Made by a program: the position numbers and the translations under genes
The notes under the pieces: model-generated
What the model saw: the letters and a program-made list of their open reading frames with translations, nothing else
Told to the model about the DNA's origin: nothing
Database searches by the model: none
Shown here: one piece after another, positions 19,480 to 35,449 of the stretch
Position numbering within the stretch: position 1 is the first letter of the stretch
How the letters are laid out: every line of letters starts with the position of its first letter
NCBI GenBank assembly: GCA_016193395.1
Contig: JACPSH010000053.1
Coordinates: forward strand, 1 to 64,000
Direction of reading: 5' to 3'
DNA: 64,000 nucleotides
DNA from: Gammaproteobacteria bacterium
GTDB lineage: Bacteria > Pseudomonadota > Gammaproteobacteria > Eutrophobiales > Eutrophobiaceae

Positions 19480-19558
19480 TTTCTTGTCTCCTCCTCGTTT
19501 TGCCTTCAGGATGCAAACCCCATTACGGGATAGCGGTTTCGTATTCTTATGCCACTGT

Positions 19559-20446
19559 TCACGCGCCCAGGTGGTGCAGCAACAGGCTGGCCGCAGTGAG
19601 ATCCGCACTGGTGCCAGGATTCATGCCGGTGTCTTTCAGCTCCCTGTCATATTCCAGCAGCATCGAAACCGCGCTGCCGGGGTTCTTCTTTTTTTCGAAC
19701 CGCTTCAGCACATCCGCGGTGCGACCGCAAATCCGCCGGGCGACGTCGGCGCCGAACTTCCTCTGGATATGGGAATCCGGGTATTCCGCCAGGAAGCGGA
19801 GATAACAGCCGGCCGTGGCCCATTCTACACTATTCCATCGGGCCAGAAATTCTCCCAGCCAGGGCAATCCGCAGCCCCAGATTTCCATAAATCCGTTCGC
19901 ATACTGGCGGGCAACGAGGTCCCTGTCCGCGGCTTCCTGCATGGCCTCGAGCAGGCTGCAGTCCGGCTCGCGATAGACGTCATGCCGCCCGCTCCGGCCC
20001 AGCCCGCCAGGCTGGGCCAACCGTATGGCGGCAAACACATCCCGGGAATCGTCGTTGTGCAGTGCACCCAAAACCTCCGTCAGGACAGGCTGGATCTGTC
20101 CTGCCTCGGCACTCGCTTCACAGGCCCGCAGAATGGGCGCATAGAGCAGCACGATACCGAGGTTGGTGTTGGTGCCTACCGCCCTTCGGGTCGCCTCGAT
20201 CGCGCCAAGCACGCGCCGGCCGACCGATGCGCCGGAGTCACACAGCGGCCCGGCACTGGCCTCGGCGCTGGTGATGAAATCCTCATAACGCATGCCATGG
20301 CCGCCGGAGAAGCGGTGAATATTGCCGGGCTTGAGGGCATCCACTTCCCCGATCAGGCTCGCGAGCACCGTACGCCTCAGTTCGTCCGGCGCGTAACGCC
20401 CTGGATGTCCGGAGGGTGATGAACGGTTTCCTGGCGCCGGAATCAT
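19559..20446 (-). CDS. CitG/MdcB-like protein of the C1 cluster
   Basis: A 295-residue protein related to triphosphoribosyl-dephospho-CoA synthase (CitG/MdcB). Shared features: [21 protein letters not shown] near residue 35, DFITSAEAS, and [14 protein letters not shown] near 100. CitG itself makes the prosthetic group of citrate lyase, but no lyase genes are here; CitG-like genes are recurrent in bacterial H4MPT clusters and are suspected of a cofactor-synthesis step. It lies between mch and fae. Start ATG at 20446 gives a start 16 bp after the mch stop; a GTG three codons earlier is an alternative. Confidence 0.75.
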
Positions 20447-20462: not shown

Positions 20463-21443
20463 TCAGCCGAATTCGCGCGTGAAGGACTGGTTGAGCTGAT
20501 CCAGATTGACCGCCCCGCCATAAAAGGAACGGCCGGTGCGCAGCGAACTGACCGTGACGCAGGCCGGACTGAACAGCAGCGGATCGATTTTGTAGAAGTC
20601 GTAATTGGCTTCCTTGAATCTCTCGCCGAACGGCTTTCCGTAATCCTTCGAGGCCGAACTCGGGAGCGTGCGCGCCAGTTCCCCGGCGGCGGCGTCCTCC
20701 GCATCCACGTATAACTGCACCTGCCCGCCGAACAGGATCGCGTCGTTGGCGCGGCTCATGGCGGTGAGCCGGTTCGGGGACGGCGGACACAAGGGCGCGC
20801 TGCCAGCGCCATCCACGATGCACTCCAGCGGAAACTTGAGCGTATGGGCCTTGTGCAGCGCCGTCTCGAGCACGCGCGAGACGATCTGCACGGCTCCCGC
20901 GAGGCTGGAAGTCGGAGTCAGGATCAGGGTCAGTTGACGCGCGGAGATCCTGCACTGGTTGGCGATTTCCTCGGCAAGTTCGACGGGTGGAATACGATCC
21001 ACTTCGAGCACGAGGCAGGCGGACTCCGCCTGATCCCGATAGCCGAGTTCATGGAACAGCTGCTCGTTGCTGCCGACGGCCCGGCCCGGCCCCGAGCCCA
21101 GCGCCCGGAACGCCTGCTTGCCCTGCCCATGGACCAGGCTCCAGCCAGCATATTGACTGCCGAGACAGGCGAGCACCGGCTGCGAGGTATGCACATCCAC
21201 GTGCCAGGACCAGTGCTGAAAATGGGTAGAGGCGCGCAACCGCACGGTGCCCAGGCCGCCAAGGCAGATTTCCGCGATCCGGCGCCCGGCCTCGAGGCCG
21301 CCGGGGGTGTGTATGCCCGCATCGATAATGCGCGTGCCATCCCCGATCGTTGTGACGTCCAGCCGGAGAGCGGTGCTGGATTGGACCAGGTCTTCGACCA
21401 GGGGCCGGGTCAGTTGATTGATGCCGGGTCGCGTTGCAGCCAA
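20463..21443 (-). CDS. mch: Methenyl-H4MPT cyclohydrolase
   Basis: A 326-residue homologue of archaeal Mch, which hydrolyses methenyl-H4MPT to 5-formyl-H4MPT. Family segments: TTIGDGTRIIDAGI, HVDVHTSQPVLACLGSQYAG, ALGSGPGRA, GAGSAPLCPPSPNRLTAMSR and NYDFYKIDPLLFSPA. Length matches the family. The start codon is TTG, preceded by an AGGGAG ribosome site, and lies 30 bp after mtdB. Together with MtdB upstream and Ftr of the divergent operon it forms the central part of the pathway. Confidence 0.96.
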   Translation of the reverse strand: MAATRPGINQLTRPLVEDLVQSSTALRLDVTTIGDGTRIIDAGIHTPGGLEAGRRIAEICLGGLGTVRLRASTHFQHWSWHVDVHTSQPVLACLGSQYAGWSLVHGQGKQAFRALGSGPGRAVGSNEQLFHELGYRDQAESACLVLEVDRIPPVELAEEIANQCRISARQLTLILTPTSSLAGAVQIVSRVLETALHKAHTLKFPLECIVDGAGSAPLCPPSPNRLTAMSRANDAILFGGQVQLYVDAEDAAAGELARTLPSSASKDYGKPFGERFKEANYDFYKIDPLLFSPACVTVSSLRTGRSFYGGAVNLDQLNQSFTREFG

Positions 21444-21473: not shown

Positions 21474-22394
21474 CTAGTTGCCGAGGATTTTTCTGCCGGC
21501 ATACTCCCGGGCGACGGCGAACGCGTCCTCGTAACCGAGGTATATCGGACGCTCTGATTCTTTCATCATCTCGAACATTCGGTAGTGGACCTTGTATTTG
21601 ACGTTGCCGATCGCCAGCGCGCCGAGGCCGAGGGCTTTCGACGGCGTGAAATTGAGGACGCGCCCGAGATCGTCGGCCTCAACGCCCTGTATGCCGGACG
21701 GGGGCACGGCATTGACGTCCGCTGCCACTTTCAGGTTGCGAGCCTGTTCCAGTTGCGCGTGGCTGACGACCCGCACGCCGGCGCGCGCCGAGCCGATGAG
21801 CACGTCGCTGTTGCGTACGATTTCCGCCACCTCCTCCTCGGAGCCGCTGGCCGCGCCGCGTACCCTGGTATGGAAGCGGGCGTTGTACTCGCGCGCGACT
21901 TCATCGGCGACATGCTGGCCGCGGTGGCTGGCGATGAAAGCCTCCGCCCCGCAACGATCCAGGAGAATCCCGGCGCAGATCCCCACCGGACCGGTGCCGC
22001 CGAAGATGTGTACCTTTTTTCCGGAGAGGTCCCCGTGGCCGACCTTCTTCAACGCGGCCTCGACACAGGCCACGAGCGCCGCGGCCGTGGTGATCGCGCC
22101 GCTGGGATCGACGAACACGGACACCTCGAACGGCGGCACCATCGCGGCCTTCGCGCGTTGCAGCATTTCCATGGCCAGTCCGAACTCCCTGCCACCGATG
22201 AAGATCCCGGTGCGCCGCACTCCAGTCGGGCCGCGCGAGAATATGGTGTCCTGGGTCAGGGCATGTATTTCGTCCAGCGTGACGTTGGAATACGGAATTA
22301 CTCCGTCGAATTCGGCTTCGTAGGCCATGTTCACGTCGAACGGACTGACGTTCTTCGTGGGATTGAATATGTGCAGGAGAAAGGGGTCTTTCAT
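21474..22394 (-). CDS. mtdB: NAD(P)-dependent methylene-H4MPT dehydrogenase
   Basis: A 306-residue MtdB-type dehydrogenase, oxidising methylene-H4MPT to methenyl-H4MPT. MKDPFLLHIFNPTKNVSPFD at the start is typical, as are GRREF-like IFIGGREFGLAMEML, the nucleotide-binding KKVHIFGGTGPVG near residue 130 and ADVNAVPPSGIQGVE. The ATG at 22394 follows an AGGA site; the frame is open to 22517 without family similarity. In the mptG-mtdB-mch operon. Choice between MtdB (NAD and NADP) and MtdA (NADP only) rests on the operon context and N-terminus. Confidence 0.93.
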   Translation of the reverse strand: MKDPFLLHIFNPTKNVSPFDVNMAYEAEFDGVIPYSNVTLDEIHALTQDTIFSRGPTGVRRTGIFIGGREFGLAMEMLQRAKAAMVPPFEVSVFVDPSGAITTAAALVACVEAALKKVGHGDLSGKKVHIFGGTGPVGICAGILLDRCGAEAFIASHRGQHVADEVAREYNARFHTRVRGAASGSEEEVAEIVRNSDVLIGSARAGVRVVSHAQLEQARNLKVAADVNAVPPSGIQGVEADDLGRVLNFTPSKALGLGALAIGNVKYKVHYRMFEMMKESERPIYLGYEDAFAVAREYAGRKILGN

Positions 22395-22437
22395 GAATTG
22401 TCCTGATGCGCCGGCAGGCCGCGCCGCCGGGCGCCGG

Positions 22438-23457
22438 TCACCGCCGACCTGACTTCCCAGACACCGCCGCGTCCATGCGCACATCCGCCGGGACGTTTCG
22501 TGCGCGGCATGATACAAAATCGAGCCCCGGGTCGTCAGCGTATCCCGCGCGCAGATCCCTCAGGGCCTGGAACGCGCCGGTTTCGCTTGCGAAGACCGCA
22601 AACCCGGTCGGCCCCCAGGAACTCTGCCCGATGCCGGCCGCTCCGAGATCTTTCAGCTTCAGCAGGGCCTGCGCCACATCGGGGCTGCTGAACCTGCCAC
22701 TCTGGGCCGCGGCAAAACAATCGCCGATGATTTCCTGTACGCGCGTGACGGCGGCGCCAAAGGCCGCGCAGTCGCGCTCGGCGAGGGCCGGCAGCAGGCG
22801 CATCATGACGAGCCGGCACACTTCCCCGGAATGGGCCTCCGACATGGCGCCGAGCCGCGCGAAGGCGTCCCGTTCCCCTTCCCCGGAAAGTCCCTGGCGC
22901 CGGCTGTCCATGATCAGCAGGAAACGCCAGGCATCCGGCACGGTCATGCGGCAGACTACCGGGGGCGTACCGGAGTCCGGCCCGCGACCGCCGTCGACAA
23001 TGAATCCGCCTTCCGCGAACGTGCCGATCCCGACCCCGGATCGCCGGCCACGATCGAGAAAGGCGGCGATCTCCTCGCACCGGTACGCAAGCCCATGCAG
23101 CCGGGACAGGGCCGTACCCACGGCAAGCGCCAGTTGCGTTCCCGAACCCAGGCCGGCGTGCTCGCGGATCGCGCGCCGGATCTCGAAGCGCACCCCGCCC
23201 TGGAGACCCGCGGCCGACATGAATTCCCGGGCATACTGCAGGGCGCGATCCGCTCCAGACCCCACCGCGCTGACCGTGTCTGCCTTCGTCGCCGTCAATT
23301 CCGTGCCCATGCCGTCGATGCTGAGGCCAAGGCTCCCAAAGCGCCGGCCGAGCCCGCCGTGCAGATCGAGGAACCCCAGATGCAGGCGCGCCGGCGCATG
23401 AATATGGACCGTGGCCGGCGGCGGCGAGGATCGGGAGGACTTGACCGGGGGATTCAC
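22438..23457 (-). CDS. mptG: Beta-ribofuranosylaminobenzene 5'-phosphate synthase
   Basis: A 339-residue GHMP-kinase-fold enzyme that condenses p-aminobenzoate with PRPP and releases CO2, the first committed step to the arylamine of H4MPT. Motifs: HIHAPARLHLGFLDLHGGLG near the N-terminus, EHAGLGSGTQLALAVGTAL as the glycine-rich loop near residue 105, GRRSGVGIGTFAEGGFIVDGG near 140 and GQSSWGPTGFAVF near 285. The start is GTG at 23457. First gene of the minus-strand operon, divergent from the fwdD-fhc operon. Confidence 0.93.
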   Translation of the reverse strand: MNPPVKSSRSSPPPATVHIHAPARLHLGFLDLHGGLGRRFGSLGLSIDGMGTELTATKADTVSAVGSGADRALQYAREFMSAAGLQGGVRFEIRRAIREHAGLGSGTQLALAVGTALSRLHGLAYRCEEIAAFLDRGRRSGVGIGTFAEGGFIVDGGRGPDSGTPPVVCRMTVPDAWRFLLIMDSRRQGLSGEGERDAFARLGAMSEAHSGEVCRLVMMRLLPALAERDCAAFGAAVTRVQEIIGDCFAAAQSGRFSSPDVAQALLKLKDLGAAGIGQSSWGPTGFAVFASETGAFQALRDLRAGYADDPGLDFVSCRARNVPADVRMDAAVSGKSGRR

Positions 23458-23645: not shown

Positions 23646-23999
23646 ATGCCGGAAATCATGCTGCTCATAGCCGGGCGCACCAGCGACCAGGGGACGTCGC
23701 TCAACAGGGGAAAACTCAAGGAAGAGTACCTGCAGGTGACGTCCACGGTGGAAATGAACGAGGACGACATGGCACGGCTCGGACTGCAGGCCGGCGATCG
23801 GATCCGGCTGAGCAACGATACCGGTGAGACCACGGTGACCTGCCAGCCACGCAAGCGCACCGATCTCCCCGCGGGGATGCTGTTCATGGCTTACGGACCG
23901 AGCTCGAGCCAGCTGATGGCCAGTGACACGGCGGGCACCGGCATGCCGATTTCCAAGAACTTCACGGTGCAGATCGAAAAGATCACTGGCGCCGCCTGA
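23646..23999 (+). CDS. FwdD-like molybdopterin-dinucleotide-binding subunit (formyl-MFR dehydrogenase subunit D)
   Basis: A 117-residue protein with the small beta-barrel MGD-binding domain that forms the C-terminal part of formate dehydrogenase-like enzymes and is a separate subunit (FwdD/FmdD) in methanogens. Seen: LLIAGRTSDQGTSLNRGKL, LKEEYLQVTSTVEMNEDDM, LGLQAGDRIRL, PAGMLFMAYGPSSSQL and DTAGTGMP, which match the FwdD pattern along its length. Start ATG 23646 has a GGAG site; the longer frame from 23523 does not look coding. It precedes the FwdB-like gene by 25 bp. The characterised bacterial formyltransferase/hydrolase complex has no such subunit, so its presence argues for a bound Mo/W cofactor. 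Confidence 0.85.
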   Translation: MPEIMLLIAGRTSDQGTSLNRGKLKEEYLQVTSTVEMNEDDMARLGLQAGDRIRLSNDTGETTVTCQPRKRTDLPAGMLFMAYGPSSSQLMASDTAGTGMPISKNFTVQIEKITGAA

Positions 24000-24024
24000 A
24001 CACCAGGGGCAGCGACGACAACTA

Positions 24025-25413
24025 ATGGACGATAAGGTCAAAACCGCGGAGACCAGCTCCGGACACGTCAAGGTCGTGGAAAACGCCACCTGCACGTTCT
24101 GCGGATGCGTGTGCGACGACATGGTGCTTACCGTCGACCTCGACCAGAAGAAGATCACCAAGGCCAAGAACGCCTGCGTGCTCGGCCGCGCCTGGTTCGC
24201 CGAGCATGTTCATGAAGACAATGTCCCGCCGGCCCTGCTCGACGGCCAGCCCGTCTCCGTCGAGGCGGCCATCGAGGAGGCGGCGCGCATCCTGGTCGAA
24301 GCGCGTTTTCCGATCACCTATGGCCTGAGCGATACGACCTGCGAAGCGCAACGCGAGGCCGTGGCCATCACGGACATGATCCGGGGCAACCTGGATACCA
24401 CGACGTCGGTCTGCCACGGCCCCTCCGGCCTGGCGTTCCAGGGAATCGGCGAAAGCACGATGACGCTGGGGGAAGTGAAGAACCGCGCCGATCTGGTCAT
24501 TTATTGGGGCGGAAACCCGGCTGAATCGCATCCGCGCCACTTCACCCGTTACGCGGTTACCCCGAAGGGGATGTTCACGCCCAACGGCAAGAAGGACCGA
24601 TACGTCGTTCTGGTGGACGTGCGCCGCACGCCAAGCGCCCCGGTGGCCGACCTGTTCCTCCAGGTCAAGCCAGGACACGACTTCGAGCTTGCCTGGGCCC
24701 TTCGGGCGCTCGTGCGCGGGCGCCGGCTTGATCCAGGCATTGAAGAGGCCACCGGCATCCCGTTGGCCACGCTGACCGATCTCGCCGCGCGCATGAAATC
24801 ATGCCGCTACGGCGTGCTTTTCTTCGGCATGGGACTGACCATGACGCGCGGCCGGCATTTCAATTCCGGCGCCGTGCTGGCGCTGGCGACCGATCTCAAC
24901 GAGTACACGCATTTCGTCGCCAAGCCGGTGCGCGGGCACGGCAACGTGACCGGGGCCGATAACGTCGTGTCGTGGCAGACCGGTTTCCCCTTCGGCGTGA
25001 ATTTCAGCCGCGGTTTCCCGCGCTTCAACCCGGGGGAATTCACCACCGTGGATACGCTGTCGCGCGGGGATGCCGATGCTGCCCTGATCGTCGCGAGCGA
25101 CCCCGCCGCCAATTTCCCGAAGGCGGCCATCGAGCACCTGGGCCGCATCCCGGTCATCAGCCTGGATGCCAAGGAAACGGCGACCAGCCGCCTGGCGCGC
25201 GTCGCCTTCCGCACGGCGACCTACGGCATCAGCGTCGCGGGGACCGTCTATCGCATGGACGACGTGCCGATCACGCTGCGGACGGCCTTCGAATCCAAGC
25301 TTCCCTCGGATGAGGACATCCTCACCGCATTACGCACCCGCATCAAGGCGCTGCTCCTCGCGCGCGGCCAGGCCGCGAAGTCGAGAAGCGCCGCGACCAG
25401 GACGGCAGCCTGA
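24025..25413 (+). CDS. fhcB: FwdB-like subunit, catalytic Cys-His motif retained (cluster 1)
   Basis: A 462-residue homologue of the molybdenum/tungsten subunit of formylmethanofuran dehydrogenase. The N-terminus has the 4Fe-4S motif Cys23-x2-Cys26-x3-Cys30 with Cys51 (TCTFCGCVCDDM, then KNACVLGRAWF). At residues 129-134 it carries VCHGPS; Cys130-His131-Gly132 (codons 24412-24420) correspond to the metal-ligand Cys and neighbouring His of FwdB and to the Sec/Cys-His-Gly of formate dehydrogenases. VKNRADLVIYWGGNPAESHP and LFLQVKPGHDFELA continue the FwdB likeness. The second copy in this window lacks the motif. I infer a functional redox subunit working with the FwdD-like protein. Confidence 0.9.
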   Translation: MDDKVKTAETSSGHVKVVENATCTFCGCVCDDMVLTVDLDQKKITKAKNACVLGRAWFAEHVHEDNVPPALLDGQPVSVEAAIEEAARILVEARFPITYGLSDTTCEAQREAVAITDMIRGNLDTTTSVCHGPSGLAFQGIGESTMTLGEVKNRADLVIYWGGNPAESHPRHFTRYAVTPKGMFTPNGKKDRYVVLVDVRRTPSAPVADLFLQVKPGHDFELAWALRALVRGRRLDPGIEEATGIPLATLTDLAARMKSCRYGVLFFGMGLTMTRGRHFNSGAVLALATDLNEYTHFVAKPVRGHGNVTGADNVVSWQTGFPFGVNFSRGFPRFNPGEFTTVDTLSRGDADAALIVASDPAANFPKAAIEHLGRIPVISLDAKETATSRLARVAFRTATYGISVAGTVYRMDDVPITLRTAFESKLPSDEDILTALRTRIKALLLARGQAAKSRSAATRTAA

Positions 25414-25440
25414 GTCACGGACTCAGGTTGCGTTTGCCGA

Positions 25441-27114
25441 TTGAAGAGCCATAACAGCACCCCGGCCGGCGCAGCCGGCCCGATCCGGATCGTCAATGGC
25501 CGGATCCATGATCCGGCGAACGGCATCGACGGCGCGGTCCGGGACCTATGCGTCGAAAGCGGCCGCATCGTCGAATCGGCACCGGTCGGCGCGCGCCGGA
25601 TCGACGCCGCGGGCATGGTCATCATGCCGGGCGGTGTGGATATCCACTGCCACATCGCCGGACCCAAGGTCAATCTCGCGCGGAAACTGCAGCCCGAGGA
25701 TCACCGCCGCGACCCGCATCCCGGAACCCTGTACACGCGCTCCGGCACGGGCGGCACGGTCCCGTCCACGTTCGCGACCGGCTACCGTTACGCGAGCCTG
25801 GGCTATACGACGGCGATGGAGGCGGCCGTCCCGCCCATCGGCGCGCGGCATACGCTGGAGGAACTGCACGACACGCCCGTCATCGACAAGGGGTTCTATG
25901 TCCTGCTCGGGAACAACATCTTTCTGCAACGCCTTCTCAAAGAGGGGCGACGCGACGAATTCCGCCAGGCCGTCGCGTGGTGGGTCAATTCGACCAAGGC
26001 CTACGCAACCAAGCTCGTGAACCCGGGCGGCGACGAACCGTGGAAGGGCAAACGCAACGCCAACGTTTCGGATATCGACGAAACCAACGAGGTATTCGGG
26101 ATCAGCCCGCGCCAGATCATTGACGCCTTTGTCGATGCCGTGCACGAGATGCGCCTGCCGCACCCGCCCCACATCCACTGCAACAACCTCGGCCACAGCG
26201 GCAACTACGCGACCACGCTCGAAACCATGAAGACCGCCGGCGATCGTCGCCTGCACATCGCCCATATCCAGTTCCACAGTTACGGCGGCCAACCGGGAAA
26301 GAGCCCTTCCTCGGCGGCGCAGCCGATCGTCGAGTACGTCAACGCCCACCCGAACATCACCTGCGACGTCGGCCAGGTGATGTTCGGCAAGTCGACCATC
26401 ATGACCGCGGACGCCCCGCTGGCCTACATGCTGCGCAACCTGAAAAAGAACAAGTGGGTCAACGCGGACACGGAATGCGAGAGCGGCTGCGGCATTGTGC
26501 CGTTCAGCTACCAGGAAAAAATCTACGTTCACGCCCTGCAATGGGCCATCGGGCTGGAGCTGTTTCTGATGTCGGCGGATCCCTGGCGCATCATCCTCTC
26601 CACCGACCATCCGAACGGCGGCTCCTTCCTGAGCTACCCCAAACTGATCCGCCTGCTCATGGATCGCGAATTCCGGAAGGAAGAAATCAAGCGCGTGCAC
26701 AAGAAGGCAATCAGCCGCACGGTGCTCGCGGATCTCGACCGGGAATACACCTTGAACGAGATCGCAATCATCAGCCGCGCCGGTCCGGCGCGCGCGCTCG
26801 GCCTCCGGAACAAGGGGCATCTCGGGCCCGGAGCCGATGCGGACATCACCGTCTACGACGACGATGCGGATCGGGAACGGATGTTCAACGCGCCGCGATA
26901 CGTCGTGAAGTCGGGCCGCGTCGTGATCGACGACCATGAATTCCGGGAGGATTTCAGCGGCCGCCTGCTGCACATCGCCCCCGAATACGACGCCACGATC
27001 GTCCAGACCGTGCGTCCGTTCTTCGAGGACTACTACTCCATCGAGTTCGACAATTACGCCGTCGGCGATTCCTTCCTGCATGACCATGAAGTCATTCCAT
27101 CGCGCCCGGCCTGA
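25441..27114 (+). CDS. fhcA: Formyl-MFR hydrolase/dehydrogenase subunit A, amidohydrolase (cluster 1)
   Basis: A 557-residue FwdA-type metallo-amidohydrolase that interconverts formyl-methanofuran and formate plus methanofuran. Binuclear metal ligands: GGVDIHCHIAG (HxH, about residues 67-69), Lys in ATKLVNPGG (carbamylated in the family), His in HIHCNNLGH, His in AHIQFHSYGG and Asp in ILSTDHPNGGSF. The only start codon in the open frame is TTG at 25441; the frame is otherwise bounded by the stop of fhcB. About 47 percent or more of obvious blocks are shared with the second copy at 32050-33711 by eye, so the two are clear paralogues or homologues. Confidence 0.94.
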   Translation: MKSHNSTPAGAAGPIRIVNGRIHDPANGIDGAVRDLCVESGRIVESAPVGARRIDAAGMVIMPGGVDIHCHIAGPKVNLARKLQPEDHRRDPHPGTLYTRSGTGGTVPSTFATGYRYASLGYTTAMEAAVPPIGARHTLEELHDTPVIDKGFYVLLGNNIFLQRLLKEGRRDEFRQAVAWWVNSTKAYATKLVNPGGDEPWKGKRNANVSDIDETNEVFGISPRQIIDAFVDAVHEMRLPHPPHIHCNNLGHSGNYATTLETMKTAGDRRLHIAHIQFHSYGGQPGKSPSSAAQPIVEYVNAHPNITCDVGQVMFGKSTIMTADAPLAYMLRNLKKNKWVNADTECESGCGIVPFSYQEKIYVHALQWAIGLELFLMSADPWRIILSTDHPNGGSFLSYPKLIRLLMDREFRKEEIKRVHKKAISRTVLADLDREYTLNEIAIISRAGPARALGLRNKGHLGPGADADITVYDDDADRERMFNAPRYVVKSGRVVIDDHEFREDFSGRLLHIAPEYDATIVQTVRPFFEDYYSIEFDNYAVGDSFLHDHEVIPSRPA

Positions 27115-27126
27115 GCGGAGATCGCG

Positions 27127-28026
27127 ATGAAGATCGGAGACACGGAAATCGACGACACCTTTGCCGAGGCGTTCAAGATGTGGGGCGCCCGTATCCTGAT
27201 CACGGCGGAGAACCCGGACTGGGCGCTCGCGGCCGCGCGATCCATGACGGGATTCGCCACCTCGGTCATCGGCTGCAAGTGCGAGGCCGGCATCGAACGC
27301 GAACTCGACACGCGCGAGACGCCGGACCTGCGGCCGGGCGTGAGCGTGCTGCTGTTTGCCACCGACGCCGAAGGGCTCGGTAAGCGGTTGGTGGAGCGCA
27401 TCGGCCAATGCGTCATGACCTGTCCGACCACGGCCTGTTTCAGCGGTCTCCAGGGCGAGAAGTCGCTTGCCGTCGGTGGACTGCTCCGCTTCTTCGGCGA
27501 TGGCTTCCAGATCAGCAAGCGGCTTCAGGGCCGCAGGCTCTGGCGTATCCCGGTGATGGACGGCGAGTTTCTCGTAGACGAAAAATTCGGCGCACAGAAA
27601 GCGGTGGGTGGCGGAAACCTGCTGCTGCTGGGCGAGGATCTGCCGGCCACGCTGGCCGCGGCCCGGTCCGCGGTCCAGGCGATGCGCGGCGTTCGCGGGG
27701 TGATCCTGCCCTTCCCCGACGGCGTGGTGCGAAGCGGCAGCAAGGTCGGCTCGCGCTACAAGGCGTTGATCGCTTCGACCAACGATGCCTATTGCCCCAC
27801 CCTGCGCGCCGTTGCGACCCAGACCCGGCTCGATCCGGATGTGAACTGCGTTCTGGAGATAGTCATTGACGGGCTTGATGAGTCGGCGGTCCGCGAAGCC
27901 ATGAACGTCGGTCTGCGCGCCGCGGCGCGGCCCGGTATCCGCAGGATCTCCGCCGGCAATTACGGCGGCAATCTCGGCCAGTACCACATCCATCTGCGCG
28001 ATCTGATCAAGGCGGATGCCGCATGA
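27127..28026 (+). CDS. fhcD: Formylmethanofuran:H4MPT formyltransferase (cluster 1)
   Basis: A 299-residue Ftr homologue that moves the formyl group between H4MPT and methanofuran. MKIGDTEIDDTFAEAFKMWG is the usual N-terminus; FATSVIGCKCEAGIEREL, LRFFGDGFQISK, GGGNLLLLGE and RISAGNYGGNLGQYHIHL are family blocks. A GGAGAT ribosome site precedes the ATG. The gene starts 12 bp after fhcA and its stop overlaps fhcC by 4 bp. In bacteria this protein is the D subunit of the Fhc complex. Confidence 0.96.
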   Translation: MKIGDTEIDDTFAEAFKMWGARILITAENPDWALAAARSMTGFATSVIGCKCEAGIERELDTRETPDLRPGVSVLLFATDAEGLGKRLVERIGQCVMTCPTTACFSGLQGEKSLAVGGLLRFFGDGFQISKRLQGRRLWRIPVMDGEFLVDEKFGAQKAVGGGNLLLLGEDLPATLAAARSAVQAMRGVRGVILPFPDGVVRSGSKVGSRYKALIASTNDAYCPTLRAVATQTRLDPDVNCVLEIVIDGLDESAVREAMNVGLRAAARPGIRRISAGNYGGNLGQYHIHLRDLIKADAA

Positions 28027-28832
28027 GCCTGAGGCTGCAATTGCGCACCCGCCCCGAAGTGCCGGTCGAGGCCGATGCCCTGGCGCCGGATCGCCTGCAG
28101 GGCCTCAAGACCCCGGAGGTCGAGTCGCTGCCGCTCATTCACGGCAACGAGAATTGCGTGGTCGGAGATTTCTTCGCTGCGGATGGCGAATGCAATGGGG
28201 AACTCCACTTGGAAGGCGACTTGTCGCGCATCAAGCACCTCGGTTCAGGTATGAAATCGGGCACGCTGCACATCCACGGGGATGCGGGCGCCCACCTCGG
28301 CGTCGGCATGTCCGGCGGCCAGGTGATTGTCGACGGCAACGCGGGGGACTGGGTCGGCCCGGAAATGAGCGGCGGCCGGATCTGCGTCAAGGGAAACGCC
28401 GGGCACATGGTGGGGGCCGCCTACCGCGGCAGCCCGATGGGCATGACCGGAGGGGAAATCATCATCGGTGGCTGCGCCCGAAACGAACTCGGCCACGGCA
28501 TGCGCAACGGCCTCATAGCCGTCGGCGGGGACAGCGGCGATTTTACGGGAGTCAACATGCTGGCGGGGACCATCATCGTGCTCGGCAGACTCGGCTTGCG
28601 CCCCGGGGCCAGCATGAAGCGCGGGACGATTGTCACACTGCACGATAGCGAGCTGCTGCCGACGTTCAGCTATGCCTGCTGCTTCCGGCCGCCGTTCCTG
28701 GGTCTGTATCTGCTCCATTTGCGGCAGCTGGATCTGGCGGTGGCAGATGCTCACATATCGGGACGCTATGCCCGCTGGTGCGGCGACTCCATCGAACTGA
28801 ACCGCGGCGAAATCCTGCTCTACAAGACCTGA
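28023..28832 (+). CDS. fhcC: FwdC-like subunit C, beta-helix repeat protein (cluster 1)
   Basis: A 269-residue protein with the right-handed beta-helix of FwdC and glutamate synthase GltB C-terminal domains: repeated G-x2-M-x-G-G-x-I/V units (GSGMKSGTLHIHGDAG, GVGMSGGQVIVDGNAGDWVG, GPEMSGGRICVKGNAGHMVG, GHGMRNGLIAVGGDSGDF). The N-terminus LRLQLRTRPEVPVEADAL is typical. It is a structural subunit linking the A, B and Ftr subunits. ATGA overlap with the Ftr gene. It is somewhat shorter in the C-terminal part than archaeal FwdC but similar to bacterial FhcC. Confidence 0.92.
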   Translation: MSLRLQLRTRPEVPVEADALAPDRLQGLKTPEVESLPLIHGNENCVVGDFFAADGECNGELHLEGDLSRIKHLGSGMKSGTLHIHGDAGAHLGVGMSGGQVIVDGNAGDWVGPEMSGGRICVKGNAGHMVGAAYRGSPMGMTGGEIIIGGCARNELGHGMRNGLIAVGGDSGDFTGVNMLAGTIIVLGRLGLRPGASMKRGTIVTLHDSELLPTFSYACCFRPPFLGLYLLHLRQLDLAVADAHISGRYARWCGDSIELNRGEILLYKT

Positions 28833-28884
28833 TACAATACGGACATCGGGGGCCGGGGCGCGGGCCGTCGACAAGGAGCTCAAC

Positions 28885-29190
28885 ATGACCACCATCGTCA
28901 CAGACCATTGCAAAGGCTGCCGCTTCACGGATTGCGTGACGGTATGCCCGGTCGAATGTTTCCACTACGACGACGACATGTTGTACATCGACCCGGATGT
29001 CTGCATCGACTGCAGTGCCTGCATCCCGGAGTGCCCCGTCCAGGCCATCTTCGAGGAGACCGATCTTCCCGACGACAAGCGCGAGTGGATCGAGATCAAC
29101 GCGCAACGCTCCAAGGAAACGCCGGTCTGCAGCGACAAGATGGATCCGCTCCCCGGAGCGGAGGAACGGAAGAAGCAACTCGGTCTCTGA
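28885..29190 (+). CDS. fdxA: 7Fe/8Fe ferredoxin, FdxA/FdI type
   Basis: A 101-residue low-potential ferredoxin. The first binding set is Cys9-x2-Cys12-x4-Cys17-x3-Cys21-Pro and the second CIDCSACIPECP (Cys39, 42, 45 and 49). The first set with four residues between Cys12 and Cys17, plus the long acidic tail (EETDLPDDKREWIEIN, KMDPLPGAE), is that of Azotobacter-type FdI and mycobacterial FdxA, which carry one 3Fe-4S and one 4Fe-4S cluster. It follows fhcC by 52 bp with an AAGGAG site and precedes its likely reductase. It could be the electron partner of the FwdB-like subunit. Confidence 0.92.
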   Translation: MTTIVTDHCKGCRFTDCVTVCPVECFHYDDDMLYIDPDVCIDCSACIPECPVQAIFEETDLPDDKREWIEINAQRSKETPVCSDKMDPLPGAEERKKQLGL

Positions 29191-29284
29191 ACCAGCCGCG
29201 TCCGGACCCGTCCCTCCCGTGAATGCAGCGGGTGTTGCCAAGACGGGCGTGACCAGCGGCTGAATATCCTCCGGATCACGTTCC

Positions 29285-30664
29285 ATGGGCAGGATTGGGA
29301 GTGAAGACAACCCCCTGCGCGTCGCGATCGTCGGCAGCGGACCCAGCGGCTTCTATGCGACCGAGGCGCTGCTCAAGGCGGGCCTGCGGGTGCGCATCGA
29401 CATGCTGGAGCGCCTCCCGGTCCCGTTCGGGCTGGTGCGCAGCGGAGTCGCGCCGGATCATCCCAAGCTGAAACAGGTGATCGAGGTGTATGCCAGGATC
29501 GCCGAAACACCGGACTTCAACTACATCGGCAATGTCACGGTCGGACGCGACATTTCCATCGACGAGCTTCGCGCCAGCCATCATGCGGTCATCTTCACCT
29601 GTGGCGCCGAATCGGATCGTAACCTCGGCATCCCGGGCGAGTCGCTCACCGGCAGCCACACGGCGACGGAATTCGTGGGCTGGTACAACGGCCATCCTGA
29701 CTATCGCGATCGCACATTTGACCTCACTCACGACACGGCTATCGTGATCGGTCAGGGAAACGTCGCGGCCGATGTCGCCCGCATCCTCGCCAAGACCGGA
29801 CCGGAGCTGGCCCACACCGACATCGCCGAACACGCGCTTGCCGTTCTGGCCGAAAGCAGGGTCCGCACCGTCTTCGTCATCGGCCGGCGCGGGCCGGCGC
29901 AGGCCAAGTTCACGCCCAAGGAGCTGCGTGAGTTCGGCGAACTCGAACATTGCGACGCCGTCGTCGACGAAACGGAACTGGAGCTGTACGACGCGAGCCG
30001 CCAAGAACTGGACGACAAGACGAACCCGGGCGCGCGCAAGATCTACGAGCAGTTTCGCGAATTCGCGACCCGGCGCGTATCGGGCAAATCACGCCGAGTG
30101 ATCTTCACTTTTCTCAAGAGTCCCGTGGAACTGCTCGGCGACGGCAAGGTCGCCCGGGTGCGGCTGGAGAAGAACGTGCTTTCGGGCGAACCGTACAGTC
30201 AGAGCGCGCGCGGCACCGGCGTGACGATGGAGATCGATGCGGGCATCGTGTTCCGCAGCATCGGCTACAAGGGAGTGGCGATCCCCGGAGTGCCGTTCGA
30301 CTCCAGGAACGGCGTGATCCCCAACGCCGACGGACGCGTTACGAAGGCGGGCGCTGCCTTGCCGCAAGTCTATGCCGCCGGATGGATCAAGCGGGGACCG
30401 ACTGGTATCATCGGCACGAATCGGGCCGACAGCGTAGCGACGGTCAATTCGCTTCTGAACGACGTGGCGGCATTCGATTCCAGTTCCGCAAAGCGCGGCG
30501 CCGACGCGGTCTACGATCGTCTCCGTAGCAAAGGTATCCGATACGTCACATTTTCCGATTGGAAGGTATTGGACAAGCGTGAAATTGACAGAGGCCGGCC
30601 CAAGGGAAAGCCGCGGGAAAAATTCACCCGCGTACAGGAAATGCTGGCCCAGCTGGACCAGTAA
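29285..30664 (+). CDS. Ferredoxin-NADP reductase, FprA/adrenodoxin reductase family
   Basis: A 459-residue FAD enzyme of the glutathione-reductase-like FNR group. FAD site RVAIVGSGPSGFYATEALLK; PVPFGLVRSGVAPDHPKLK is diagnostic of FprA/adrenodoxin reductase; the NADP fold is VIGQGNVAADVARIL; GWIKRGPTGIIGTNRADS near residue 380 is the other family block. In mycobacteria FprA works with 7Fe ferredoxin, and here the two genes are neighbours, so electrons from the ferredoxin can be exchanged with NADP(H). The ATG at 29285 is preceded by a poor ribosome site. Last gene of cluster 1. Confidence 0.93.
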   Translation: MGRIGSEDNPLRVAIVGSGPSGFYATEALLKAGLRVRIDMLERLPVPFGLVRSGVAPDHPKLKQVIEVYARIAETPDFNYIGNVTVGRDISIDELRASHHAVIFTCGAESDRNLGIPGESLTGSHTATEFVGWYNGHPDYRDRTFDLTHDTAIVIGQGNVAADVARILAKTGPELAHTDIAEHALAVLAESRVRTVFVIGRRGPAQAKFTPKELREFGELEHCDAVVDETELELYDASRQELDDKTNPGARKIYEQFREFATRRVSGKSRRVIFTFLKSPVELLGDGKVARVRLEKNVLSGEPYSQSARGTGVTMEIDAGIVFRSIGYKGVAIPGVPFDSRNGVIPNADGRVTKAGAALPQVYAAGWIKRGPTGIIGTNRADSVATVNSLLNDVAAFDSSSAKRGADAVYDRLRSKGIRYVTFSDWKVLDKREIDRGRPKGKPREKFTRVQEMLAQLDQ

Positions 30665-30770: not shown

Positions 30771-32045
30771 ATGCCCGTCGCCACGACCATAACGTTCAAG
30801 AATGTCGTTTGTCCATTCTGCAGCCTGTTGTGCGACGACCTGGCTGTGTCGCTCAAGGATGGACGCCTGAAAGCCGGGCATGGCGCCTGTCCTCTGGCCA
30901 GGCATGGACTCGAATACACGGGTACCGCCCTTTCCCCGCACGTTGACGCTAAACCAGTCCCCTATGTGGATGCACTGGGCCGGGCCGCGCAGATCCTGCG
31001 AAGCGCCCGACAGCCGCTGGTGGGCGGCATGGGAACCGATGTCCGGGGTTGCCAGGCAGCCGTGGCACTGGCGGAGCGTTGCGGTGCCGCCGTCGACCAC
31101 ATGCACAGCGATGCCGCGCTCTGCAACACCTTCGTGTTGCAGAGCCGCGGCGGGATGCTGACCACGTTGACCGAATTGCGCAACCGCGCGGACCTGATCG
31201 TTTTTGTCGGCACGGATGCGCTCGCGACCCATCCGCGCTTTTATGAGCGATGTGTCTGGCCGTCCAGCGCCCTGATAACTTCGAGACTGAAAAGCAGGCA
31301 GATCATATACATAGGCGATAAACTCAAGACCCGTCATGGGACCGGCCGGGGGCGGAGAGGCGCACAGCTTGTCGCCTGCAACCGTCACGAGATCGCGGAC
31401 ATCCTCGGTGCCCTGCGGATGCTCCACCGCGGCCGCAACCCGGCCACCACGGGGATTATCACCCGTGCCCGCCTCGCGCAACTGAACGAAGTGGTACGAC
31501 GTCTGCGTGCGGCGCGATACGGCGTCCTGGTTTGGTCGGCGGCGGAACTGGACCCGACGAACAGGGAACTCGTCATACAGGCGATCAGTGAGCTCGTGGT
31601 CGCGCTCAACGAAACCACTCGATTTGCCGGCTTGGCGCTTGGAGGCGCGGACGGCGGAACCTCCTCAGCGAACGTCTGCGCGTGGCAGACGGGTTTCCCC
31701 GGGCGCGTGAACTTCACGGCCGGCAAGCCGGAATTCGATCCAGAACTGTACCGTGGCCGGACCATGCTGCAATCCGGTATGGCGGACGCGCTGCTGTGGA
31801 TCTCCAGTTTCGGGACGGATGCGAAACTGCCCGTAACGCAGGTGCCGACGATTGCCCTGACGCGTCCCTCGCAGCGTGTCGCGCGATCCGCTAAAGTCTA
31901 CATCCCGGTCGGAACGCCCGGCGTCGACCATGACGGCTCGCTGTTCCGGCTGGACGGCGTCGTCAGTCTGCCGTTGCGTGGATTGCGGACGCCGCAGATG
32001 CCGTCCGTAGCCCACGTGTTGACGCAGCTTCGTGAGCGGCTGTAG
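30771..32045 (+). CDS. fhcB: FwdB-like subunit lacking the catalytic Cys-His (cluster 2)
   Basis: A 424-residue FwdB homologue. The N-terminal cluster motif is kept: Cys14-x2-Cys17-x3-Cys21 and Cys40 (VVCPFCSLLCDDLAV, HGACPLARHG). Aligning TLTELRNRADLIVF with the cluster 1 protein without gaps puts Asp114-Ala115-Ala116 where cluster 1 has Val-Cys-His, so the metal-ligand Cys and its His are gone. This is the state expected for the hydrolytic Fhc complex of Methylobacterium-type methylotrophs, in which the B subunit is not a redox catalyst. No FwdD-like gene accompanies this copy. It starts 106 bp after the reductase gene. Confidence 0.9.
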   Translation: MPVATTITFKNVVCPFCSLLCDDLAVSLKDGRLKAGHGACPLARHGLEYTGTALSPHVDAKPVPYVDALGRAAQILRSARQPLVGGMGTDVRGCQAAVALAERCGAAVDHMHSDAALCNTFVLQSRGGMLTTLTELRNRADLIVFVGTDALATHPRFYERCVWPSSALITSRLKSRQIIYIGDKLKTRHGTGRGRRGAQLVACNRHEIADILGALRMLHRGRNPATTGIITRARLAQLNEVVRRLRAARYGVLVWSAAELDPTNRELVIQAISELVVALNETTRFAGLALGGADGGTSSANVCAWQTGFPGRVNFTAGKPEFDPELYRGRTMLQSGMADALLWISSFGTDAKLPVTQVPTIALTRPSQRVARSAKVYIPVGTPGVDHDGSLFRLDGVVSLPLRGLRTPQMPSVAHVLTQLRERL

Positions 32046-32049
32046 TCCC

Positions 32050-33711
32050 GTGCTGGTGCGGCTGAAAGGCGCGGTGGTCTACGATCCGATGCACGGGATC
32101 GACGGCAGGCGCATGGACCTGTTCATTCGCGACGGCATCATGGTTCCGGCGCCGCGAAGGGACACCCGGATCGATCATACCTATGATGTCCGCGACCGCA
32201 TCGTCATGGCCGGCGCCATCGATATCCATACCCACATCGGTGGCGGCAAGGTCAATATCGCCCGCGCGCTGTTGCCGGAAGATCACATGCCGTATGCGGT
32301 CCAGGGCAGCCCGATCCTGCGCGCCGGCTCCGGCCACGCGGTCCCCACCAGCTTCATCACGGGATACCGTTACGCGGAGATGGGATATACGGCATGCTTC
32401 GAGCCGGCCATGCTGCCCGCCAACGCCCGTCACGCGCATGCGGAGATGGCGGATGTCCCGATCGTCGATACCGGAGCCTACGCGCTCCTCGGCAATGACG
32501 ATTTCCTGCTGCGCCTGCTCGCCGGCAAGACCGGCCAGAAGGTGATTAACGACTACGTGGCGTGGATCGTGAACGCGACACACGCGCACGGCGTCAAGGT
32601 CGTCAACCCAGGCGGGATCAGCGCATTCAAGTTCAACCAGCGAGATCTCGACCTCGATGTCCGGCATGAACATTACGGCGTATCGCCGCGGAGGATCCTG
32701 AAGGCCCTCGCACGCGCGGTGCATGAGCTCGGGATCTGCCACCCCCTGCATGTGCATGGCTGCAACCTGGGCGTGCCCGGAAACGCCGAAACCACGTTGA
32801 AAACCATAGCCGCGGTCGAGGGACTTCCGTTGCACCTCACCCATGTGCAGTTTCACAGCTACGGGCGAGAGGGTGATCGCGGGTTCTCATCCGCCGCCGC
32901 GCGCATTGCGGAGGCGGTCAATTCCAACCCCAACATCTCCATCGACGTCGGACAGGTCATGTTCGGACAGACCGTCACGGCATCCGGCGATACCATGCTG
33001 CAATACCGCGGCCGCCGCCACGCGCACCCGAAAAAGTGGGTGTGCATGGATATAGAATGCGATGCCGGTTGCGGCGTGGTGCCCTTTCTCTACCGCGATC
33101 ATAACTTCGTCAACGCCCTGCAATGGTGCGTCGGCCTGGAACTGTTCCTGCAAGTCCGGGATCCGTGGCGCATATTCCTCACGACCGACCATCCGAACGG
33201 CGCGCCGTTCACGACTTACCCGCGCCTCATACGGCTGTTGATGGATCGCGCTTTCCGCGCTGAGATGCTGGACCGCATCCATCCTGAGGCGCGTAAGTCC
33301 AGTATCCTGGACAGCCTCGACCGCGAATATTCCCTGGCGGAAATCGCCATCATGACCCGGGCGGCCCCGGCCCGCAGCCTGGGCCTCCAGACGCGCGGCC
33401 ACCTCGGCCGCGGCGCCGCGGCTGACATCACGGTCTATGAGCCGAACCGCAACGCGGAAAGGATGTTTTCAAAACCCGCGCTCGTGTTCAAGGACGGGGT
33501 ACTGGTGGTCCGTGACGGCAAGGTGATCCAATCCACGTCCGGGCAGGTGCATGCGACCCGGCCCGCATACGACCGCGGGATCGAGCGCGTGCTGAAGCAG
33601 TATTTCGATCGCTATCACACGGTGTCGCTGGGCAATTTCCGGATAGGAAGCGATGAACTGCTCGGTTTCGGCCGGTCGGCGATTTCGGTCCATCCCTGCG
33701 TGCCACGGTGA
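32050..33711 (+). CDS. fhcA: Formyltransferase/hydrolase subunit A, amidohydrolase (cluster 2)
   Basis: A 553-residue FwdA-type amidohydrolase. Metal ligands are all present: GAIDIHTHIGGGKVNIARAL, Lys of GVKVVNPGG, His of LHVHGCNLG, LTHVQFHSYG and the Asp of FLTTDHPNGAPF. The likely reaction is hydrolysis of formyl-methanofuran to formate. A GTG at 32050 gives the family N-terminus just after the fhcB stop; another GTG at 32032 would overlap fhcB and cannot be excluded. Formate would be used by the FDH encoded two genes on. Confidence 0.94.
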   Translation: MLVRLKGAVVYDPMHGIDGRRMDLFIRDGIMVPAPRRDTRIDHTYDVRDRIVMAGAIDIHTHIGGGKVNIARALLPEDHMPYAVQGSPILRAGSGHAVPTSFITGYRYAEMGYTACFEPAMLPANARHAHAEMADVPIVDTGAYALLGNDDFLLRLLAGKTGQKVINDYVAWIVNATHAHGVKVVNPGGISAFKFNQRDLDLDVRHEHYGVSPRRILKALARAVHELGICHPLHVHGCNLGVPGNAETTLKTIAAVEGLPLHLTHVQFHSYGREGDRGFSSAAARIAEAVNSNPNISIDVGQVMFGQTVTASGDTMLQYRGRRHAHPKKWVCMDIECDAGCGVVPFLYRDHNFVNALQWCVGLELFLQVRDPWRIFLTTDHPNGAPFTTYPRLIRLLMDRAFRAEMLDRIHPEARKSSILDSLDREYSLAEIAIMTRAAPARSLGLQTRGHLGRGAAADITVYEPNRNAERMFSKPALVFKDGVLVVRDGKVIQSTSGQVHATRPAYDRGIERVLKQYFDRYHTVSLGNFRIGSDELLGFGRSAISVHPCVPR

Positions 33712-33716
33712 GCCAC

Positions 33717-34613
33717 ATGAAGATCAACGGGGTCACCGTTGACAATACCTTTGCCGAGGCCTTCGCCATGAAGGCAACGCGGCTTGTCATCACCGCCATG
33801 ACGCTGAAGTGGGCTTACCGGGCGGCAAACTCCCTCACCGGGTTTGCGTCCTCGGTCATCGCCTGCGGCTGCGAAGCGGACATCGAAAGGGAACTGGGCC
33901 CGGGCGAAACGCCGGACGGCAGGCCGGGAATTGCCGTGATTATGTTCGCGATGTCCAGGAAACAGTTGATGGATCAGGTGCGACGGCGCGTCGGACAATC
34001 GGTCATGACGACCGCCACGAGCGCCTGTTTTGCCGGCAGTCGGAGCGATGACATGATCCCGCTGGGGCGGAGCCTGCGCTACTTCGGCGACGGGTTCCAG
34101 ATCTCCAAGACAGTCGACGGGATCCGCTACTGGCGCATCCCCGTCATGCACGGCGAGTTTCTGTGCGAGGAGTCCACGGGCATGGTGCCCGCCATCGGCG
34201 GCGGCAATTTTCTGGTCATGGCCAAGACTTCACGGCACGGCATTACCGCGTGCGAACAGGCAGTCCGGGCGATCCGGGCGGTACGCGGGGCGGTCACGAC
34301 CTTCCCTGGCGGGATCGTGGGGTCGGGATCCAAGGTCGGCTCGAAATACCGCTTCGTCCCGGCGTCGACGAACGAGGTGTTCTGCCCCACCCTGAAGGGG
34401 CTGGTGCCCACGCAGCTCACCGAGGAAGTGGGATCCGTGCTGGAAATTGTCATCGACGGATTGAATGAGAAGGCGATTCGCGAAGCCATCCGGGCCGGCG
34501 TGCACGCGGTGTGCCGCTTCGGGCCGAAGAAAGGGATTTTCCGCGTCAGCGCGGGAAACTACGGCGGCAAGTTGGGTCCGTACCACTTCCATCTCTGGGA
34601 CATCCTGAAGTGA
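33717..34613 (+). CDS. fhcD: Formylmethanofuran:H4MPT formyltransferase (cluster 2)
   Basis: A 298-residue Ftr homologue: MKINGVTVDNTFAEAFAM, FASSVIACGCEADIERELG, LRYFGDGFQISK, GGGNFLVMAK, VGSGSKVGSKYRF and RVSAGNYGGKLGPYHFHLWD. The ATG at 33717 has GGTGA 6 bp upstream and matches the family start; a GTG at 33708 overlapping the fhcA stop is an alternative. Together with the cluster 1 copy the cell has two formyltransferases, which would let both formyl-MFR complexes draw from the same formyl-H4MPT pool. Confidence 0.95.
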   Translation: MKINGVTVDNTFAEAFAMKATRLVITAMTLKWAYRAANSLTGFASSVIACGCEADIERELGPGETPDGRPGIAVIMFAMSRKQLMDQVRRRVGQSVMTTATSACFAGSRSDDMIPLGRSLRYFGDGFQISKTVDGIRYWRIPVMHGEFLCEESTGMVPAIGGGNFLVMAKTSRHGITACEQAVRAIRAVRGAVTTFPGGIVGSGSKVGSKYRFVPASTNEVFCPTLKGLVPTQLTEEVGSVLEIVIDGLNEKAIREAIRAGVHAVCRFGPKKGIFRVSAGNYGGKLGPYHFHLWDILK

Positions 34614-35449
34614 GCGACGTCACTTTTGAATTGCGCCGTCAGCCGGAGACCTGGCTGGATCTCTCCGCGTTGACGCCGGACAAGCTGCACGGCCACACGC
34701 TCACGGCCATCAAGGCGATCCGCCTGCGTTGCGGCCGCCGCGCCGGAAACGTCGGCGATCTCTTCCAGGTCTCCGGCGACGATCCCCTGTCGTTGAGGTT
34801 CGTCGATGCGTGCCGCAGTTTCGTGCGGCTGGGACACGGCATGACCCGCGGCCGGATCCGTGTCAACGGCCACGCGGGCCACTACCTCGGGCAGGATATG
34901 CGTGGCGGACAGATCACGGTGCGTGGCAGCGCCGGCAACTGGCTCGGAGCGGGCATGTCCGGCGGAAGCATTGAGATTTCCGGTGACGCGGGGGACTTCA
35001 TCGGAGCGGCCGTAGCCGGCGCGATGCACGGCATGACCGGAGGAAACATCGTTGTCGGCGGCAATGCGGGGAAGCGCGCCGCGGACCGCATGCGGCGAGG
35101 GACCATCCTGGTGCTCGGGGACGCGGGTGATTTCGCCGGCTCCCGCATGATCGCCGGCACCCTGCTGATCCTTGGGCTGGCCCGGACGGGCGTCGGATAC
35201 GGAATGCGCCGCGGAACAATAGTCCTCGGACGGATGCCGGCGCACGTGCCTGTCACGTTCAACGACTGCGGCAGGCTTAAAATGGAGTTTCTGCGCCTGC
35301 TGTTCAAGCAAACCGCGGATTCCAGGAAGCGTTTCGGCTACTTTCGCGAATTCGGCCCCGAGGCCCGGCGTTTCGCCGGCGACATCGCCGCCGGCGGCCA
35401 GGGTGAAATCCTCGTGCTGTTGAATGCGTCGCGGCGCCGTTCCGCATGA
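34610..35449 (+). CDS. fhcC: FwdC-like subunit C, beta-helix repeat protein (cluster 2)
   Basis: A 279-residue beta-helix protein with repeats such as GHGMTRGRIRVNGHAGHYLG, GQDMRGGQITVRGSAGNWLG, GAGMSGGSIEISGDAGDFIG and GGNIVVGGNAGKRA. Starts with GTG at 34610, overlapping the Ftr stop by 4 bp (GTGA), and ends overlapping fdhB by 4 bp (ATGA). Structural subunit of the complex. Its extreme C-terminus (residues about 230-279) is longer and differs from the cluster 1 copy. Confidence 0.92.
   Translation: MSDVTFELRRQPETWLDLSALTPDKLHGHTLTAIKAIRLRCGRRAGNVGDLFQVSGDDPLSLRFVDACRSFVRLGHGMTRGRIRVNGHAGHYLGQDMRGGQITVRGSAGNWLGAGMSGGSIEISGDAGDFIGAAVAGAMHGMTGGNIVVGGNAGKRAADRMRRGTILVLGDAGDFAGSRMIAGTLLILGLARTGVGYGMRRGTIVLGRMPAHVPVTFNDCGRLKMEFLRLLFKQTADSRKRFGYFREFGPEARRFAGDIAAGGQGEILVLLNASRRRSA

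Follow-up and report, generated by a model that had tools for sequence, protein, structure and literature searches.

In bacterial methylotrophy as described in textbooks, the one-carbon (C1) branch ends in a non-redox hydrolase and free formate. The locus described here, on a 64,000-nucleotide stretch of gammaproteobacterial DNA (the window), raises the question of whether some methylotrophs oxidise formyl-methanofuran (formyl-MFR) straight to CO2 and retain the electrons. The original prediction proposed a redox formyl-MFR dehydrogenase with its own ferredoxin and NADP reductase, working oxidatively or fixing CO2 in reverse.

Gene organization of the C1 island

The predicted seven-gene run, fwdD-fwdB-fwdA-ftr-fwdC-fdxA-fprA (set 1, 23646-30664), is indeed present on a single strand, with gaps of -4 to 94 bp (Table 1), and the recurrence of this gene order in relatives indicates that the run is not due to chance. 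The range covered by that prediction ends before a second set, fhcBADC, and fdsBA, which continue on the same strand to 39871. In FwdA, the HxH, Lys, His and TDxPN motifs of the binuclear metal site are retained.

Table 1. Features of the C1 island (window coordinates)
Feature	Position	Strand	Evidence
fwdD, separate molybdopterin-dinucleotide-binding D subunit, 117 aa	23646..23999	+	ATG start; Pfam Molydop_binding 47 bits
fwdB, predicted catalytic Mo/W subunit	24025..25413	+	TIGR03129 505 bits (cut-off 328); archaeal FwdB E 2e-115
fwdA, amidohydrolase subunit (formyl-MFR hydrolysis / formate condensation site)	25441..27114	+	TIGR03121 716 bits; solved FwdA E 6e-145
ftr (copy 1), formyl-MFR:H4MPT formyltransferase	27127..28026	+	TIGR03119 430 bits
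fwdC, beta-helical C subunit	28023..28832	+	TIGR03122 262 bits
fdxA, 7Fe ([3Fe-4S][4Fe-4S]) ferredoxin	28885..29190	+	Azotobacter FdI E 5e-30
fprA, FprA/adrenodoxin-reductase-type ferredoxin-NADP(H) reductase	29285..30664	+	solved FprA E 3e-111, residues 10-454
fhcB (second set), scaffold-type B subunit	30771..32045	+	TIGR03129 280 bits, under cut-off
fhcA (second set)	32032..33711	+	TIGR03121 734 bits
fhcD / ftr (copy 2)	33708..34613	+	TIGR03119 408 bits
fhcC (second set)	34610..35449	+	GTG start inferred; TIGR03122 240 bits
fdsB-type NAD-binding subunit (NuoE/NuoF fusion) of formate dehydrogenase	35446..37137	+	nuoF family 366 bits
fdsA-type NAD-linked Mo/W formate dehydrogenase alpha subunit	37121..39871	+	TIGR01591 735 bits
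beta-RFAP synthase (H4MPT biosynthesis), divergent neighbour	22438..23457	-	TIGR00144 140 bits
mtdB-like methylene-H4MPT dehydrogenase, start unrefined	21474..22517	-	Pfam Mpt_N E 3e-33
mch, methenyl-H4MPT cyclohydrolase	20463..21443	-	Pfam MCH E 1e-117
fae, formaldehyde-activating enzyme	18967..19608	-	TIGR03126 245 bits
methanofuran-biosynthesis-like genes	15059..18103	-	MfnE-like kinase 15059-16003, 64 bits (weak match); MfnF-like 17051-18103, TIGR03123 343 bits
PQQ-dependent methanol/ethanol dehydrogenase	42315..44282	-	TIGR03075 627 bits

A pabB-type gene (Chorismate_bind) sits between the MfnE-like and MfnF-like genes, and MobA was found in the genome. As the island encodes a PQQ methanol dehydrogenase, fae, mtdB and mch, the metabolic context is oxidative. 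Methanotrophy of the host was considered and rejected, since its genome gave no pmoA match, whereas two USC-gamma genomes gave one.

A redox-type B subunit with a separate FwdD

In FwdB, the metal-site residues Cys130/His131/Arg303 correspond to Cys118/His119/Arg288 of the Methanothermobacter wolfeii enzyme, the [4Fe-4S] cysteines are Cys23/26/30/51, and the Cys-His-Gly motif is present as predicted. The four Fe-S cysteines and Cys118/His119/Arg288 are invariant in essentially all 85 bacterial FwdB relatives, which span four phyla; Cys118, His119, Arg288, His290 and Asn292 (archaeal numbering) are kept in 85/85. FwdB-type proteins retain 83% of 86 archaeal-invariant positions, compared with 44% in FhcB; in the second-set FhcB the Mo/W ligand is lost and the N-terminal four cysteines are kept, and Cys118/His119/Arg288 are lost altogether in 28/28 neighbouring FhcB proteins. 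The MGD pocket was judged from residue conservation.

Modelling and phylogeny of the B subunit had been proposed as checks, and both agree with a redox type. With 14 close sequences, AlphaFold gave a poor model (pLDDT 60); the 74-sequence model used in its place (pLDDT 89) superposes on archaeal FwdB with TM 0.91-0.92 at 2.3-2.4 Å, including TM 0.92 (target length) and 2.3 Å against 5T5M_B. In the tree, bacterial FwdB and FhcB form separate supported clades, so the earlier naming of set 1 as fhcB/A/C is abandoned, the true hydrolytic Fhc being the adjoining set. Hydrolytic Fhc is marked by a B subunit without the Mo/W ligand and by the lack of a D subunit; this describes set 2 (30771-35449), whereas set 1 (23646-28832) has both ligand and D subunit. 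Because FwdB stands beside its decayed scaffold version in one operon, how the Mo/W site was lost in evolution becomes directly testable.

The predicted separate MGD-binding D-type subunit is also present, having family and solved-structure matches (five solved FwdD chains, E 5e-18 to 3e-11), though its 75 bits with the NCBIfam FwdD model lie under the curated cut-off of 175. Its motifs GRTxxQG and YGP...TxGTGMPxSK are conserved in 76 relatives, and fwdD is retained at 74 of 80 FwdB loci. Sequence, conservation and model comparisons together support the assignment of set 1 to the redox (Mo/W) type of formyl-MFR dehydrogenase (FMD) with a separate FwdD.

The ferredoxin and reductase genes

Archaeal FMDs use FwdF/G polyferredoxins, and this module is not universal among FMDs; a profile search gave no FwdF match over the cut-off in the window's genome or three relatives. 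FdxA has cluster cysteines 9, 17, 21, 40, 43, 46 and 50 in the 7Fe pattern of Azotobacter FdI, scores 115 bits with NCBIfam FdxA (cut-off 135), and is distinct from the genome's other FdxA paralogue (52%). Both fdxA and fprA accompany the Fwd set at 36 of 38 assessable proteobacterial loci, and the link also occurs in rearranged gene orders at three independent positions in the tree. Where fprA is absent, in Methylococcaceae and RBG_16_51_14, an Nfn-like flavoprotein of ~1200 aa adjoins the Fwd set; neither fdxA nor fprA lies next to the FwdB loci of planctomycetes and Chloroflexota.

Relatives without Fwd also keep the pair, near genes for ribonucleotide reductase or formate dehydrogenase, so its exclusive dedication to Fwd was rejected: it is a conserved partner whose function is not Fwd alone. 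The original wording, 'its own ferredoxin and NADP reductase', therefore holds for the linkage to set 1 and fails for exclusivity. We found no literature report of a soluble ferredoxin/reductase module with bacterial Fwd.

Distribution across genomes

All 11 FwdB genomes tested carry fae, and none of five genomes without FwdB does. FwdB was the sole B subunit found in 4 genomes and in 27 of 30 further genomes, three MAGs being shared between the two counts. We rejected the possibility that Fwd-only genomes do without formate dehydrogenase, as fdsA is retained in 10/10 genomes tested, including those without FhcB.

Proposed function and alternative explanations

From gene identity, active-site residues, fold, synteny and co-occurrence with fae, we put at roughly 70% the probability that FwdDBAC with Ftr is a Mo/W FMD run oxidatively, with electrons passing via the 7Fe FdxA and FprA to NADP+. 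The genes at 23646-28832 would ultimately be of archaeal origin. Ftr would transfer formyl from formyl-H4MPT onto methanofuran; within the complex, FwdA would then hydrolyse formyl-MFR to formate, and FwdBD would oxidise that formate to CO2 at a Mo/W-bis-MGD centre. The [4Fe-4S] cluster of FwdB would hand the electrons on to FdxA, from which FprA would pass them to NADP+. The same carbon step would be carried out by fhcBADC and fdsBA via free formate followed by NAD+-linked oxidation, so that the locus would hold two parallel branches. The intact W/Mo site and electron-carrier genes make oxidation straight to CO2 probable; the host, an uncultivated aerobic methanol user, probably sends its last one-carbon intermediate this way, retaining the electrons. 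Of the original prediction as a whole, the redox type, FwdD and the ferredoxin/reductase link are supported, while reverse CO2 fixation, the exclusive carriers and the fhc naming are unsupported or overstated.

A true redox FMD might use another acceptor, fdxA-fprA being a general ferredoxin-NADP module nearby, as the Fwd-less relatives and the planctomycete loci would suggest; we regard this as doubtful, since the association outlasts rearrangement, an Nfn-like ferredoxin/NADP-type protein substitutes for fprA in two groups, and the linked FdxA is a distinct paralogue. It is very improbable that the Mo/W site is vestigial and that set 1 functions as an Fhc, releasing formate by hydrolysis of formyl-MFR. 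This would fit the hydrolytic Fhc of Methylorubrum extorquens (PMC10100899) and the retention of FdsA even without FhcB, but the metal site is fixed across four phyla while same-genome FhcB lost it, and FwdD is widely retained.

FprA-type enzymes classically carry electrons from NADPH to ferredoxin, a direction that would suit a reductive complex making formyl-MFR from CO2 for assimilation. The enzyme class is reversible and reductive in methanogens, and the CO2/formyl-MFR couple lies at about -530 mV (PMC11656701), a potential at which thermodynamics favours oxidation. The island's methanol/formaldehyde genes are oxidative, and FwdB co-occurs with fae in all genomes tested. With a potential of about -0.32 to -0.37 V, NADPH could drive a -0.53 V couple only through coupling to an energy input. 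CO2 fixation by set 1, as the original prediction had allowed, is accordingly unlikely, and we give it very little weight.

For the oxidative reading of set 1, the wider implication, which we hold to be likely on balance, is that many uncultivated aerobic methylotrophs, at least one atmospheric-methane oxidiser of USC-gamma type included, end C1 oxidation via a ferredoxin-linked Mo/W FMD, instead of or beside formate release, with low-potential electrons reaching NADPH by FprA, or by the Nfn-like flavoprotein in Methylococcaceae. If true, this would mean a different energy and NADPH balance for many methylotrophs of soil, groundwater, sponge-associated and marine origin, and would account for many such genomes without FhcB.

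Comparison with known systems

Bacterial FwdB as such is no novelty, being already reported in published surveys (PMC10100899, PMC7325909). The Hakuba Actinobacteria operon fwdDBA-ftr-fwdC shares gene order and the catalytic Cys with set 1; in the available portion of its description (PMC7325909), it is assigned to a Wood-Ljungdahl context, H4MPT biosynthesis genes were not found, and no fdxA-fprA beside it is mentioned. Methylorubrum extorquens FhcABCD (6S6Y), which acts after Mch in the H4MPT pathway, shares A, B, C and the formyltransferase, but its FhcB is without a Mo/W site, it has no D subunit, and it is a weaker structural match to FwdB (TM 0.63-0.83); the window's second set is of this kind. 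The tungsten FwdABCDFG of M. wolfeii (5T5I/5T5M/5T61) has in common with set 1 the A, B, C and D subunits, Cys118/His119/Arg288, the four Fe-S cysteines and the fold (TM 0.91), whereas set 1 has no recognisable FwdF, a 7Fe ferredoxin and FprA in its place, ftr inside the operon, and a bacterial aerobic methylotroph context. The best structural match is the F420-reducing formylmethanofuran dehydrogenase of Candidatus Ethanoperedens (8RJA), which is oxidative and has a dedicated electron-exit enzyme; its exit is an F420 reductase, whereas that proposed for set 1 is a ferredoxin with an NADP reductase.

Gene organization and the B subunit

The window, part of contig 44 of a 2.7-Mb draft genome (97% complete), carries exactly the run named in the original prediction, fwdD, fwdB, fwdA, ftr, fwdC, fdxA and fprA, all on the plus strand. 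The same strand continues past fprA with fhcB-fhcA-fhcD-fhcC and, 3′ of this second C1 set, with fdsB and fdsA, which encode an NAD-linked formate dehydrogenase, at gaps of −17 to 106 bp. In divergent or flanking positions lie fae, mch, mtdB-like, beta-RFAP synthase, MfnF/MfnE-like and PQQ methanol/ethanol dehydrogenase genes; both sets, fdsBA and these neighbours therefore mark the window as an island for formaldehyde oxidation in a gammaproteobacterial methylotroph. A search for pmoA gave no match in its genome and was positive in two USC-gamma genomes.

Locations of the features discussed
Feature	Location	Remark
Ribonucleotide reductase genes	10733-14888	window
fwdD to fprA	23646-30664	set 1
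FwdB	24025-25413	set 1
fhcB to fhcC	30771-35449	set 2
FhcB	30771-32045	set 2
fdsB, fdsA	35446-39871	window
~1200-aa Nfn-like flavoprotein	L116:5326-9018; L121; L112:5877-9287	GltD-like and FNR-like halves

Five solved archaeal FwdB sequences share 86 invariant alignment columns, of which 83% are retained in the window FwdB and 44% in the window FhcB. The Cys-His-Gly motif noted in the first B subunit is present. In bacterial FwdB-type sequences, Cys118 (the metal ligand) and His119 (M. wolfeii numbering), along with Arg288, His290 and Asn292, are conserved in 85/85, and all four cysteines of the Fe-S site in 84/85, whereas Cys118, His119 and Arg288 are substituted in FhcB-type sequences (n = 28). 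The separate D-type subunit is likewise present, its GRTxxQG and TxGTGMP motifs retained across 76 relatives; FwdA retains HxH, Lys, His and TDxPN, and the genome encodes MobA, which is required for bis-MGD. Modelling gave a confident window FwdB structure (pLDDT 89) that superposes on archaeal FwdB (TM 0.91, 2.3–2.4 Å) better than on Methylorubrum FhcB. In the B-subunit phylogeny, bacterial FwdB forms one maximum-likelihood clade (support 96) and FhcB another (support 100), but the FhcB branch is so long (3.1 changes per site) that its placement relative to archaeal sequences is unsure.

The Mo/W ligand is lost in the window FhcB and 27 related FhcB (L035–L134), and all four N-terminal Fe-S cysteines are still kept in 26 of these 28. 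Methylorubrum FhcB is shorter (361 aa) and does not share these cysteines. The window FhcB and its relatives may represent an intermediate in decay from FwdB.

Proposed electron exit

Among the first 20 relatives examined, the order fwdDBA-ftr-C-fdxA-fprA is repeated across the family, except in L036, whose contig stops early, and L053, whose genome lacks fprA. A wider survey of 80 named loci from public genomes included 38 proteobacterial loci with enough flank to judge; fdxA occurs in all 38 and both genes in 36. At three separate points of the FwdB tree (L063, L079 and a beta-proteobacterial/gemmatimonadete group) the pair lies upstream rather than downstream of fwdD; the linkage has therefore persisted through rearrangement. 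In small gammaproteobacterial draft or single-cell assemblies, L080 and L089 (1.4–1.5 Mb) and L106, L108, L109, L115 and L120 (0.9–1.1 Mb), the FwdB-type set occurs alone, and fdxA-fprA adjoins it.

In Methylococcaceae (L116, L121) and RBG_16_51_14 (L112/L142), fprA is absent and the set adjoins a flavoprotein gene, directly upstream of fdxA-fwdD or fwdD, whose product resembles NfnB and NfnA of NADH-dependent ferredoxin:NADP oxidoreductase. This protein apparently takes the place of fprA, and such a swap of one ferredoxin-pyridine-nucleotide enzyme for another is, at the sequence level, the strongest argument for an exit through ferredoxin and NAD(P).

Against a dedicated exit, a close fdxA copy stands beside fprA in five Fwd-less relatives (one contig ends inside fprA), with ribonucleotide reductase nearby or formate dehydrogenase genes adjoining; the pair therefore has a role wider than Fwd. 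The survey found no fdxA-fprA at planctomycete and Chloroflexota FwdB loci, FwdF had no recognisable match in this genome or three relatives, and formate dehydrogenase is kept in 10/10 genomes tested, including those without FhcB. L136, L139 and L140 (genomes G010, G023 and G036) have no fae or FwdB, yet keep fdxA-fprA (the L139 contig ends within fprA), in two cases just 3′ of ribonucleotide reductase genes, which the window has as neighbours too; the whole C1 island seems to have been lost and the pair retained.

Most likely, Ftr would load methanofuran, FwdA would hydrolyse formyl-MFR within the complex, FwdBD would oxidise the trapped formate to CO2, and one [4Fe-4S] cluster would pass electrons to FdxA, from which FprA would reduce NADP+. 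We infer the oxidative direction from gene context and the formyl-MFR couple of about −0.53 V (PMC11656701). The parallel Fhc/Fds branch would yield free formate and NADH, and the two branches presumably serve different needs.

Distribution

Fae occurs in 11/11 tested genomes with FwdB and 0/5 without. No B subunit other than FwdB was found in G014, G016, G027 and G034 or in 27 of another 30 genomes, three of them apparently MAGs already counted; the genomes are mostly drafts, so single absences may be gaps. Both types occur in 4/4 Methylococcaceae/Methylococcales MAGs tested and in one of the two pmoA-positive USC-gamma genomes, the other having FwdB only. Planctomycete C1 loci (L110–L134) carry FwdD and FwdB with an intact Mo/W site, and FhcB was not found in the planctomycete genomes searched; these bacteria may likewise have a redox H4MPT branch.

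Comparison with known systems

In the open-access literature searched, we found no report of an fdxA-fprA or Nfn-like module with bacterial Fwd, or of bacterial Fwd in place of Fhc in methylotrophs; earlier mention elsewhere is possible. These two features appear to be new, and a putative redox Fwd with a ferredoxin/NADP exit in methylotrophs is well supported by sequence. Bacterial FwdB itself is already known: 149 representatives have been listed, with transfer from Archaea inferred (PMC10100899), PMC7325909 describes actinobacterial fwdDBA-ftr-fwdC with the catalytic Cys, and a review of FMD electron-module diversity includes an ethanotroph's complex coupled to F420-reductase (PMC11656701).
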